Source of the DNA: Crambe crambe
Taxonomy: Eukaryota; Porifera; Demospongiae; Poecilosclerida; Crambeidae
NCBI GenBank assembly: GCA_963924555.1
Contig: OZ004585.1
Location: forward strand, 1,687,488-1,751,487
Direction: 5' to 3'
Length of the DNA: 64,000 nucleotides
This document shows positions 26,703-46,772 of the stretch, piece after piece (positions within the stretch are counted from its first letter, which is position 1; the number at the start of each line of letters is the position of its first letter). Under the pieces are notes generated by a model that was not told the DNA's origin, did no database searches, and worked only from the letters and a program-made list of their open reading frames with translations. The translations under genes and the position numbers were made by a program.

Positions 26703-26789
26703 GTACTGTATGTGACTGCACTGGTGGTGGTGGTGGGTGGGGCCAGTGCTATGTCACACTGACGAGTCCCAATAAGGACGAAACAGTAC
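26703..26789 (+). ncRNA. Type III hammerhead ribozyme, copy 1
   Basis: All hammerhead core elements are present in order: stem III strand GTACTG, cleavage triplet GTA (cut expected after 26710), stem I TGTGAC...GTCACA extended by GCACTGG/CCAGTGC with a GGT-rich loop, core CTGACGA (26759-26765), stem II GTCC-CAATAA-GGAC, GAAA (26780-26783) and the stem III partner CAGTAC. Stems I and II are closed and stem III is open, which is the type III topology. It should self-cleave in RNA of the plus strand. An 80-nt conserved segment with a CCTCTT/AAGAGG stem precedes it. Confidence 0.92.
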
Positions 26790-26799
26790 AAACTTAAAG

Positions 26800-27940
26800 T
26801 CAAAAATTGAAGCTCTTAATTAACTTTATTGCAAAAATAATCATAGAGCATGCATAATACACAGGCAATGTGTTCACTTAGTATTTGCTACAGTCACCAG
26901 ACAAGTAAAGTTTGGTCTACTGCTACAAATACTTCATTAAAAGTGATTGACAGCTACTGTTATATCAATTACACCTCCAGTAATTAAACTGGTAAAACTC
27001 CCCACCTCAGAAGTTGTCATCATCGTTTTGTTTTTCTTACGGCAGTTGCAATGATCACTCCATTGTGAAAGAATATCAAAGCAAGTGACACTGTTATTTC
27101 ATTAAGTCACTTAATTACGTTCAAGCATTCTAAACCTTGCCTAGCTAATCTCATAGAGAAGACAATTCATTTTTATTACCTTAACTGCCATTTCTCATAA
27201 TGTTTCAACGTTCAAAAGCCTTGCCTAATAGCTACAAACTGACACCAAGTTACCTTTTCATTTCTCAATAATATTTTGATGAATAATTTCTAAATTGAAA
27301 CCCCTCCTCCCTTTCGTTCCTAAGCCAGGCCTCTAGCTAAAATGGTGCAATCTATAGAGTGCCATAGAAATTTTGACCATGCCTAGTTTGCTTATAGCCG
27401 TACACATTTTTACTTGGACAACTCGTGCTTCTGTTCCAAGCTGAAAGCAGAAATGGTACGTGTATTCAGAAGAACATCATTAGGGCTCGTAGCTAATCAT
27501 GTAGGAGCTTATGTGATTATTACATGCCTATGTGTGCGCCTTTTGTTCTTAATTGGCGAGCGAAGCGAGCCACTCTCTGGTCATGTCAACGGGAGCTCGA
27601 GATATATATATACGTACGTCATAGCTAGCGGGCATAGCTTATAATACGCATGCGCACGTTCGTTTGACCTTTGACCCCACAAATGAAACGTGCCCATAGC
27701 ACTTAGAACAAATAGCTAGAGCTTATTGCTTTCTACAGCATTTTGTCATAGAGGCGCTAAGTTTATTGTAGGCGCATGGCTTTCTAAGTGCTTGTGGTAA
27801 GCATTATACAGCCTCCTGTCAGTGTGTATGCAGCTGCCACACTGCCACAACCACTGCAATATCTTAGGCTTAGTCCAATAAGTCTGACTTTCACCAACTG
27901 TTTCGCTCGCCGATTGAATATGTTACACGAACATACCCTA
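26800..27940. other. No gene; delta-like remnant at 27550-27940
   Basis: AT-rich sequence without convincing frames. From about 27550 a GGCGAGCGAAGCGAG block, a CGTACGTC stretch, GCGCATGGCTTTCTAAGTGC and GAACATACCCTAGTA reproduce the landmarks of the delta module in diverged form. Confidence 0.5.
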
Positions 27941-28287
27941 GTAATAAGTTGATGATTCAGTCTGTCCTATTGGTTGTGCTTGAAAGTACAGTGCAATGCA
28001 GATGTGTGTAGTAATAAGTTGATGATTCAGTCTGTCCTATTGGTTGTGCTTGAAAGTACAGTGCAATGCAGATGTGTGTAGTAATAAGTTGATGATTCAG
28101 TCTGTCCTATTGGTTGTGCTTGAAAGTACAGTGCAATGCAGATGTGTGTAGTAATAAGTTGATGATTCAGTCTGTCCTATTGGTTGTGTTTGAAAGTACA
28201 GTGCAATGCAGATGTGTGTAGTAATAAGTTGATGATTCAGTCTGTCCTATTGGTTGTGCTTGAAAGTACAATGCAATGTAGATGTGC
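27941..28287 (+). repeat. Tandem repeat, 70-bp unit x 5
   Basis: Units start GTAATAAGTTGATGATTCAG at 27941, 28011, 28081, 28151 and 28221. The first four are almost identical; the last is slightly diverged at its end. It directly follows the delta remnant. No coding potential is shared between units. Confidence 0.95.
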
Positions 28288-28539
28288 CCTCAGTCACCAA
28301 ATTTATTAATTTTATAGCTACGTAGCTATTGATTGATATTGTTACCACAAAGAATTACTCAAGAATAACTTAAAGTGAGAGTATAAACATAATGACAGTC
28401 CACATTCTAGTGTGGAGGGACAGGTCCTGAGGAAATTGATTCCAGCTGTAATCTGAGAGGCACAACTAGAGTTGAAGGAAGTCAGAAACACTGACTACTA
28501 ACTCTCACAGTGTGTGTGAGTGTGTGAGAGAGAAAGAGT

Positions 28540-28640
28540 CTCACAGTGTGTGTGTGTGTGTGTGTGTGTGTGTGTGTGTGTGTGTGTGTGTGTGTGTGTG
28601 TGTGTGTGTGTGTGTGTGTGTGTATGTGTGTGTGTTACAC
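28540..28640 (+). repeat. GT dinucleotide microsatellite
   Basis: About 100 bp of nearly uninterrupted GT, preceded by imperfect GTGTGAGTGTGTGAGAG. A second, shorter tract is at 29358-29400. The remainder of 28300-29800 has no gene; a motif GGTTTCGGTCCCATTAATCTC-like appears twice (about 28934 and 29599), indicating another diverged repeat. Confidence 0.9.
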
Positions 28641-44869: not shown

Positions 44870-45091
44870 ACTTGAAACTTGAAATAGTAATTCTACTAGT
44901 TATAATTACAGAGTTAGTTATAGTGTTCTAGCTAAAGTGTGGCTAATTCATGTGGTATTGATAGTTCATTTTGATTTGTGTTCAGCCCTAACCAGGCAGG
45001 CATGCTCAGTCGACCCACCCACCTTTTTCCATGATCTCATAGTTCCCTTCCTCACCATCCTTGATAACCTGGAATTTTTCACCTATAACAT
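44870..45091. other. No gene seen
   Basis: 3' flank of copy E, similar to the flank of copy A until about 44983, then unrelated sequence leading into the hAT relic. Confidence 0.5.
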
Positions 45092-46376
45092 ATGCTTCTC
45101 TTTTCTCTAATGCACCCACTCCTCACAGCTCACTCCCCCACTGAGAAATCACTCCAGCATAAACAGCTAATAGCCTGTCGTCAAGTGGGAGACGTCGCCT
45201 TGCTTGTGTCTCCTGATGGTTTATCATATGATAAGTTAGTGAGTGCAACAACAGATGGTGCAAATGTGATGGTTGGGGCACATAACTCAGTAACAGCTCG
45301 CCTTCGAGAAAAGCAGTCCCAGTTGTACACACTCCATTGTCCATGCCACATAAGTGCATTTATTTCAACTAATGCTTGTCAGAAGATCCCAGCAGCAGTT
45401 ATAGAGCAGCTAGTCCGTGATATCTTCAGTCATTTTAGTTCATCTCCAAAGTGACAATTCCTATACTCACAGTTTCAGACATTTGTAGACTGTAAGCCAC
45501 ACTAGCTGACAGGATAATCGAACAGTATCCAGCTTTATTATCATACTTCAAGAGATATGAGGAACAGTTAGTGTCCATTGAGCGAATTATATCACAATTG
45601 GAGAATACCTCTACTCTGGCACTCGTCTGAGGCACTTCAAATTATCAATGCTACAGCAGTTAGGCTTGTATACAGAAATGTCAAAGTTAATGTTGGAAGG
45701 GGGCATAAGGTTAGTAAGTCGTCCTGCATTACGTCCAGTCTTAATAAGTGATCTGGGAAAAAGAATGATATTATAATACAGTGAACTCCCTTTACAAGCC
45801 TACCTCTCTGATCAGTACTATAATAAAACTCTCTAAGGTGGCCAGGTTAATATTATGCAAAGAGAGAAATCTTGTATTCACATTTTGTATCGTCAAACAA
45901 TCATACTCTACAAGAAGATACTTATGACCTTCCTCAATCCAACAGTAGTTTACAAGGTTTGTTCAGGCACCCTTGATGATTTGAAGCAGTGTATTGAAAA
46001 CCAGAGCTACACATTTTTAACTGAAGAAGAAGTGGACATTGGACTAATAACAAGAATTTACCTTGACAAGCGTATCAATGCAGGAGAAATTTCCAACAGA
46101 GAAGTACAAGTAGTAAGAGAAATTTGTATATACATCCTTTTGGATAGAAGCTGCCACATAAGCAAGGTGATGTCTCCCACTTGACAACAAGCTAATTCAG
46201 TGTCTAGGGTGGTCGTTTTCTCGTACAACTTCAACCTATTCAGAAATAATTGAGTTGGCAAGGTTTTTTCCTAACAGTGTGCCTCTAACACAGCTTCCTC
46301 AGCTCAAAAGGGAGTTTACAGAGTATCAATGTGTACCTATTGACTGTAATGAAGTAGACGACATTGCTATTTATTA
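45092..46376 (+). pseudogene. Relic of a ZNF862-type hAT transposase
   Basis: Broken plus-strand frames keep the order of a hAT-family transposase of the zinc finger 862-like type: TTDGANVMVGAHNSVTARL and LHCPCHISAFIS (about 45247-45363; the conserved DGA and CH...H region), FQTFVDCKPH, then IEQYPALLSYFKRYEEQL (about 45515-45570), IHILYRQTIILYKKILMTF (about 45873-45930) and LTQLPQLKREFTEYQC (about 46287-46335). There are at least six frame breaks or stops, so it is dead. It ends about 25 bp before the hairpin at 46407. Confidence 0.8.
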
Positions 46377-46406
46377 GCATAAAGTATCCCTTATGAATGA
46401 CTCTCT

Positions 46407-46603
46407 GAACAATGAAGACTAAATTTGTGCCTTGGTAAGATCATGTCTTAGTCAAATTATTGAAAGAAGAAAAAACTATCAAATAAACAACAAAAAATAG
46501 CAACAAACAACAATATACTAACAACAAAAAAGAATCTTCACTCTCTGGAACAATGAAGACTAAACTAGTGCCTTGGTAGGATCATGCCTTGGTCAAATTG
46601 TTC
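46407..46603 (+). ncRNA. Conserved 3'-module hairpins, copies 4a and 4b
   Basis: Hairpins at 46407-46461 and 46548-46603 separated by an A/C-rich tract with CAACAAA repeats. Copy 4b is almost identical to 3b; 4a has GGTAAGATCAT in place of GGTAGGATCAT. Confidence 0.6.
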
Positions 46604-46679
46604 TTGGAACGAAGAAGAATCCCCTCTCGTATCTAGCACTACAGCATTGGTAGTAAGAGGGTTTACAGTGGATTTTAGT

Positions 46680-46772
46680 GTACTGTATGTGACTGCACTG
46701 GTGGTAGTGGTGGTGGTGGGTGGGGCCAGTGCTACGTCACACTGACGAGTCCCAATAAGGACGAAACAGTAC
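46680..46772 (+). ncRNA. Type III hammerhead ribozyme, copy 4
   Basis: Complete: GTACTG-TA (cut after 46687), stem I TGTGAC/GTCACA with extension and GGTGGT loop, CTGACGA 46742-46748, GTCC-CAATAA-GGAC, GAAA 46763-46766, CAGTAC 46767-46772. It belongs to the segment duplicated from, or to, copy 3. Confidence 0.92.

Follow-up and report, generated by a model that had tools for sequence, protein, structure and literature searches.

Type III hammerhead ribozyme motifs arrayed on one strand of a tandem gene cluster in the sponge Crambe crambe

Introduction

Hammerhead ribozymes of animals are mostly of type I and occur in retrozymes, Penelope elements and Terminons, according to the excerpts of the literature considered here (PMC7229834, PMC7761336, PMC6431247, PMC3088659). 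Exceptions described in such excerpts are the type III motifs of hepatitis delta virus (HDV)-like RNAs, termites and dipterans (PMC7936874), and the Clec2 motif (PMC6155905). A stretch of 64,000 nucleotides (nt) from the sponge Crambe crambe (contig OZ004585.1, here C8:1687488-1751487), referred to below as the window, carries four motifs that a preliminary description of the DNA read as type III hammerheads. It held this type to be unusual for animals, which agrees with the prevalence of type I in the excerpted reports (PMC7229834, PMC7761336). Our search for an earlier sponge hammerhead, in mostly open-access literature and with the wider 'sponge' matches partly screened, found no report pairing the hammerhead ribozyme with Porifera or a self-cleaving ribozyme with Amphimedon queenslandica. 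What, then, is a repeated type III hammerhead doing in a sponge genome? The answer that we consider moderately probable is that the hammerhead, with predicted cleavage in cis, ends a noncoding module that was multiplied locally inside a tandem gene cluster, all on one strand.

Results

Judged by their sequence, the four motifs are complete type III hammerheads with an extended helix I, and self-cleavage is predicted for them. The scores below come from a covariance model of our own that was built from nine copies, and those nine match it by construction.

26701..26793, plus strand: type III hammerhead 1; cleavage nucleotide A17 at 26710; own model 116.3 bits (built partly from hammerhead 1)
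26702-26709 with 26783-26790, plus strand: stem III of hammerhead 1; its CTGACGA lies at 26759-26765 and its GAAA starts at 26780
36875..36968, plus strand: type III hammerhead 2; predicted cut after 36884; own model 114.9 bits
39992..40090, plus strand: type III hammerhead 3; predicted cut after 40001; own model 128.6 bits
46678..46776, plus strand: type III hammerhead 4; predicted cut after 46687; own model 128.8 bits; inside a block common to hammerhead 3

A strict type III descriptor places the cleavage nucleotide at 26710, 36884, 40001 and 46687, which bears out the earlier claim of four complete plus-strand motifs. Hammerhead 1 consists, in order, of the stem III strand UGUACUGU, the predicted cut after A17 (26710), stem I UGUGAC, an internal loop U/UAU, an outer helix of 7-8 base pairs (bp), a GGU-rich loop, CUGACGA, stem II GUCC-CAAUAA-GGAC, GAAA and the closing stem III strand ACAGUACA. 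In all four window copies, stems II, III and I have 4, 7 and 6 bp, respectively, when the A15.1-U16.1 pair is excluded from stem III, and the cleavage triplet between stems III and I is GUA, which is of the NUH kind. The three helices have their open end on stem III (7-8 bp), which is type III topology and not the minimal type I form of Penelope-like elements and Terminons. The internal loop follows the first 6 bp of helix I, next to a helix II of 4 bp, which is the type III spacing in the excerpt of PMC7936874. The core pattern with at most two mismatches has exactly four matches in the window vs none in 100 dinucleotide shuffles. The minimum free energy fold of each window copy alone comprises stems III, I and II; in copies 3 and 4 the outer helix I is rearranged. 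Fold energies of these four copies are modestly below those of shuffles (z of -1.5 to -2.0; 9-18 of 200 shuffles equally stable).

The hammerhead is the 3' end of a noncoding module, mostly 220-400 nt long, that can be described as unit A, an A-rich tract and unit B. The following parts were located in the window.

26452..26511, plus strand: unit A upstream of hammerhead 1
26512..26635, plus strand: A-rich tract between units A and B of hammerhead 1, 75% A
26636..26700, plus strand: upstream part of unit B of hammerhead 1, with a CCTCTT...AAGAGG hairpin and the 5' arm of the competing hairpin described below
36685..36724, plus strand: unit A upstream of hammerhead 2
39731..39780, plus strand: extra unit A upstream of hammerhead 3
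39841..39925, plus strand: unit A adjoining unit B of hammerhead 3
41239..41303, plus strand: unit A upstream of a core-less relative
46400..46458, plus strand: extra unit A upstream of hammerhead 4
46532..46616, plus strand: unit A adjoining unit B of hammerhead 4

The spacer between units A and B is 54-77% A in eight of the ten cases measured and 38-40% A in the other two. An alignment of 16 unit A copies shows a strongly conserved block around CCTTRGTARGATCAT and an imperfect direct repeat. As to a tRNA-like origin of unit A, no tRNA was found in the window, and Pol III boxes, judged by eye only, were unconvincing.

The four window copies belong to a larger array. Throughout the genome as searched (143 Mb, 119 contigs; all genome-wide counts are lower bounds), the core pattern with at most two mismatches has 17 matches: 12 exact, one with one mismatch and four with two. 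The 13 exact and one-mismatch matches all lie on the plus strand within C8:1659262-1785973, while the four two-mismatch matches lie elsewhere; a reversed control gave 3. DNA searches with unit B and unit A returned 14 and 17 matches, respectively, all on the plus strand of the same 127 kb. Over a 174-kb region, our covariance model finds 13 places above 100 bits and three more at 22-28 bits, and the strict descriptor finds ten intact motifs on the plus strand, none on the minus strand and none in 40 Markov-1 controls of the plus strand. The 13 copies start, in window coordinates, at -28285, -17111, -5124, -3035, 26701 and 36875, followed by 39992, 46678, 69237, 79232, 82323, 91989 and 98401. 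Two pairs are identical over the motif (-28285 and -17111; 26701 and 69237). The CUGANGA/GAAA core with its 10.1-11.1 pair, the cleavage site and the helices are intact in ten of the 13. Most of the array is probably catalytically competent. The 127-kb cluster holds three further relatives without a hammerhead core, one of them in the window.

41384..41486, plus strand: core-less relative; own model 25.5 bits; CTGANGA...GAAA absent; upstream hairpin, cleavage-site region and GGT-rich arm kept

In the searches made of this genome, the array is confined to one locus and one orientation, and the viral_contigs and genome_contigs collections gave no match to the exact core pattern.

Self-comparison reveals a tandem gene cluster with repeated blocks that are 76-99% identical, those carrying hammerheads being 86-99% identical. 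One such block in the window is listed here.

39729..40647, plus strand: duplicated block with hammerhead 3; partner 46405-47303 (hammerhead 4), 919 bases, 86-87% identity

Copies 3 and 4 are not independent, because these two segments are one duplicated block. Thus, of the preliminary claim of four hammerheads in 20 kb, the number present stands, while the four are only part of 13 hammerheads in 127 kb and two of them share one origin. Another duplication, offset by about 42.3-42.5 kb, links 26701, 36875, 39992 and 41408 to 69237, 79232, 82323 and 83713. The module occurs in about five flank contexts with mostly unrelated flanks, and the part common between contexts is unit A, the A-rich spacer and unit B. 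Between the genes lies a patchwork of other local repeats; local duplication and exchange are therefore favoured over transposition as the way in which the module spread.

Change is unevenly distributed along the module. When five lineages are compared (five of the 13 copies; sums by hand), helices and core differ in 10/586 comparisons, catalytic positions in 0/120, loop I in 18/212 and the 48 upstream positions in 52/308; without the poorly alignable -28285 copy, helices and core differ in 2/354 and the upstream part in 16/198. Counted over all 13 copies, and leaving aside two core-less copies also in the alignment, 7 of the 60 columns in helices and core are variable, compared with 19 of the 48 upstream ones (Fisher p = 0.0012). 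Two of 12 catalytic columns vary, both owing to damaged copies, and so do 6 of 24 loop I columns. With copies 82323 and 98401 set aside, the figures are 4/60 (catalytic 0/12) against 15/48 (p = 0.0017). Purifying selection or gene conversion would fit this smaller amount of change within the ribozyme, and gene conversion could mimic the effect of selection. The preliminary description had read selection from an invariant core with varying loops. The difference between ribozyme and upstream columns sustains part of this; the rest needs correction, as the copies are linked by segmental duplication, lesions affect the core, the cleavage site or the 10.1-11.1 pair in three of 13, and three relatives have no core. 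Covariation was set aside as proof of structure, there being too little variation; one compensatory change, C-G to U-A, occurs in stem I of the -28285 copy.

A stretch UACAGURCA that lies 5' of the cleavage site could form a helix with UGUACUGUA, which is also the stem III strand, and this helix ends exactly at A17. The window copies have the following hairpins.

26677..26710, plus strand: upstream hairpin TACAGTACA/TGTACTGTA of hammerhead 1, flush at A17, competing with stem III
36851..36884, plus strand: upstream hairpin of hammerhead 2, 9 bp with one G-U, flush at A17
39978..40001, plus strand: upstream hairpin of hammerhead 3, 9 bp with one G-U, flush at A17, with a shorter loop
46664..46687, plus strand: upstream hairpin of hammerhead 4, 7 bp uninterrupted, flush at A17

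The hairpin was looked for in 13 sequences, made up of 11 distinct hammerheads and two core-less relatives. A 9-bp flush helix is present in nine of them (seven hammerheads and both core-less relatives); the helix is shorter in the others, with 7 bp in three hammerheads (in -3035 by way of a different upstream arm) and 4 bp in -28285. When 50 nt of upstream sequence are included, forcing the hammerhead fold costs 0.4-6.3 kcal/mol relative to the predicted minimum in 12 of the 13 array copies, under an energy model that omits tertiary stabilisation of the hammerhead. The flush hairpin is within the predicted minimum, as judged by eye, in nine of 13 copies, the exceptions being -28285, -17111, -3035 and 82323. 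These models suggest that the upstream hairpin can capture the stem III strand in most copies.

The surrounding cluster consists of tandem ORFs (open reading frames) for multi-membrane proteins on the plus strand, at 15.0-17.2, 18.5-21.2, 22.9-25.1, 42.5-44.8 and 55.2-58.0 kb, with more downstream. They have no Pfam match above the cut-off and no relative among solved structures; minus-strand ORFs at 32.5 and 33.3 kb have a weak RSN1_7TM match below the cut-off. A membrane-protein ORF precedes hammerheads 26701, 46678, 69237 and 91989 by 1.2-1.9 kb, and no such ORF is found in the 10 kb upstream of hammerheads 36875, 39992, 79232 and 82323. Because half of these copies have no such ORF upstream, no single gene type explains the hammerheads. 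A 47%-identical relative of the cluster membrane protein is located on contig C5, where the module searches found no hammerhead. Within the membrane-protein family (15004-25081, 42461-44785, 55202-57954), the ORFs at 15806 and 56560 differ by 56, 45 and 57 at the three codon positions, near-equal values as expected for fast diversification or decay of these genes, and some copies carry stops. The ORF upstream of hammerhead 2 has differences of 4, 4 and 12 by codon position, a test that cannot tell the strands apart there since, as worked through by hand, the wobble position is shared with the minus frame that overlaps it. The relatives of ORF 25890-26351 are confined to this cluster (three genome matches including itself), apart from two proteins on other contigs. 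A neighbouring ORF, which may be mobile, has 390 homologues; among the 120 listed, the sole organism name is the sponge Dysidea avara.

Other repeats are found in the window. ORF 49269-51350, located 2.5 kb downstream of hammerhead 4, has RNase H and integrase domains of the long terminal repeat type, and we take it to be Ty3/gypsy-like. Near-perfect inverted repeats of the fold-back type lie at 3110-3558 and 48183-48552, with arms of 220 and 181 nt that are 99% complementary and 9 and 8 nt apart, respectively. Repeats of about 230 nt and longer occur in both orientations at 2649-10974 and 59242-63914, and a piece related to them matches L067:1-291, near Helitron-like ORFs.

Elsewhere in the genome there is a dispersed family of type I hammerheads, exemplified by L041:1475-1632 (core at C1:4042137 and 39 other places). 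It has a GUC site, a stem II of GCTC-CAAATA-GAGC and a stem III of 4-7 bp closed by a long arm (descriptor, nine of nine loci tested). Its core is found at 40 genome places within two mismatches, 32 of them exact, with 19 on the plus and 21 on the minus strand. The family scores under the RF00163 cut-off (best 25.4 vs 34), and in the minimum fold of L041:1475-1632 stems I and II form and stem III does not. The one copy examined upstream appears Helitron-like from its ORFs, which match DUF6570, Pif1 2B and OTU above the cut-off and Helitron_like_N below it; the literature passages found on both subjects describe no Helitron carrying a hammerhead. As to a possible derivation of the type III motifs from this type I hammerhead, the stem II loop and GAAACAGT look alike in the two, but in a blastn comparison of three type III modules with L041, L045 and L067 the best match was an A-rich one at E = 0.004.

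Discussion

From the motif, its single locus, common orientation, duplication history and uneven conservation, all obtained by computation, we infer the following course of transcription, cleavage, product folding and effect on transcripts. The module would have been multiplied by local duplication inside a single tandem gene cluster, on one strand. Plus-strand RNA, if transcribed, would self-cleave in cis behind A17, leaving a 5' product with the A-rich tract; in most copies the new 3' end of this product could close as a hairpin flush with the cleavage nucleotide, a structure that may favour product release over re-ligation. Trimming of read-through or noncoding plus-strand transcripts of the cluster appears the most likely role. 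A more ambitious proposal, which we regard as improbable, is that the host has adopted the module as a self-cleaving 3' end. Cluster transcripts would carry a genome-encoded A-rich tract followed by the hammerhead, and the strand common to the ribozyme and the upstream hairpin would make cleavage switchable and seal the 3' end in the flush hairpin.

Several results weigh against a locally multiplied, self-cleaving module. The preliminary description had looked to the Rfam hammerhead III model (RF00008) for confirmation in window and genome, which it did not provide: the model does align with the core, with stem II and with the stem III 3' strand, and with its long helix I hammerhead 1 scores 22.1 bits against a gathering score of 48.5, which is a curated cut-off rather than a definition of the ribozyme. 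The best score in the sponge's own genome is 24.1 bits (68 of 20730 first-look candidates scored). The score is low because helix I is long and the model picks the wrong GUC; it takes one inside the 3' strand of stem I as the cleavage site, and the true stem III strand is about 50 nt further upstream. Three of the 13 copies are damaged and are rejected by the strict descriptor: 79232 has a G to A change at 10.1, 82323 has lost its cleavage site (A17 to G) and has a stem III change, and 98401 has G12 changed to A. No neighbouring gene is consistent. The compensatory change in stem I is the sole pair altered on both sides, and 49 of 500 shuffles reach it. The competing hairpin is shared by both core-less relatives tested and is not flush in the -28285 and -17111 copies. 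With 50 nt upstream, the minimum fold of -3035 is the hammerhead itself, and that of 82323 retains most of stem III. Moreover, composition-matched controls reach the observed helix in 0.2-7.5% of cases for 9 bp, 2-21% for 7 bp and 41% for -28285, so the hairpin evidence is suggestive only.

Of the other explanations, the one with most weight, although we hold it the less probable, is that the copies are passive relics of a former ribozyme-bearing mobile element, carried along by cluster duplications, with any cleavage having no role. The copies do ride on segmental duplications, three of 13 are damaged, three relatives are without a core, and the module stands in about five contexts with mostly unrelated flanks. 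Against relics, most of the change falls outside the ribozyme, the genome searches yielded no dispersed module copies, and no reverse transcriptase was recognised beside it among the ORFs scanned, which were not every ORF. An animal retrozyme-like element with type III ribozymes, still making circular RNA from between two hammerheads, is very unlikely. The short noncoding module of low GC content with its hammerhead, and the spacing of 2.1-3.1 kb between nearest core-bearing neighbours on one strand, would suit it, whereas confinement to one locus and one strand would not, and described animal retrozymes use type I in the excerpt of PMC7229834. Nor did Tandem Repeats Finder, run on 26300-47500, detect an array with a hammerhead per unit, that is, the direct repeats of 150-1000 bp expected of retrozymes; retrozyme-style dispersed copies were likewise absent from the genome searches. 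Retrozyme identity was rejected, neither of the features tested, tandem units and dispersal, having been found. No Penelope or Terminon ORF with reverse transcriptase and endonuclease was recognised among the ORFs scanned, a subset of all, in which 49269-51350 is the sole retroelement ORF. The motifs lie outside any recognised Penelope or retrozyme body, as the preliminary description had it. An artefact of chance or low complexity is hardly credible: the score under the Rfam cut-off would be in its favour, while the shuffles and Markov-1 controls, which gave no match, rule out a chance match as to sequence, and there are 13 related copies above 100 bits in our own model (nine of the 13 used in building it).

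A locally multiplied module thus remains our preferred reading, and the array resembles a local gene-cluster feature more than an ordinary jumping element. An oriented, single-locus type III array that is conserved chiefly in its ribozyme part offers a natural test of a host gene cluster retaining a ribozyme. Among known systems, retrozymes are similar in being short noncoding DNA with hammerheads, those of plants being of type III in the excerpted reports (PMC7229834, PMC7761336); they differ in that here there is one locus, with no tandem or dimeric hammerhead units and no dispersal found. The discontinuous hammerhead in the 3' untranslated region of mammalian Clec2 genes, as excerpted (PMC6155905), is also a type III motif in an animal with an enlarged helix I. 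There, helix I spans 150-1500 nt, whereas the helix I loop here has about 16-25 nt, and the link with an untranslated region is shown only for Clec2. From the motifs in the excerpt of PMC7936874, type III hammerheads with a long helix I were already known in a few animals. These are likewise of type III, with a long helix I broken by an internal loop and with animal hosts, and the termite genomic motifs likewise lie outside a recognisable element. The letters of their GCCR/YGGC pseudoknot are not in the loops here (by eye), and the sponge motifs are distinguished by a 4-bp helix II with a CAATAA loop, an internal loop U/UAY in most copies, and the presence of 13 copies at one locus.

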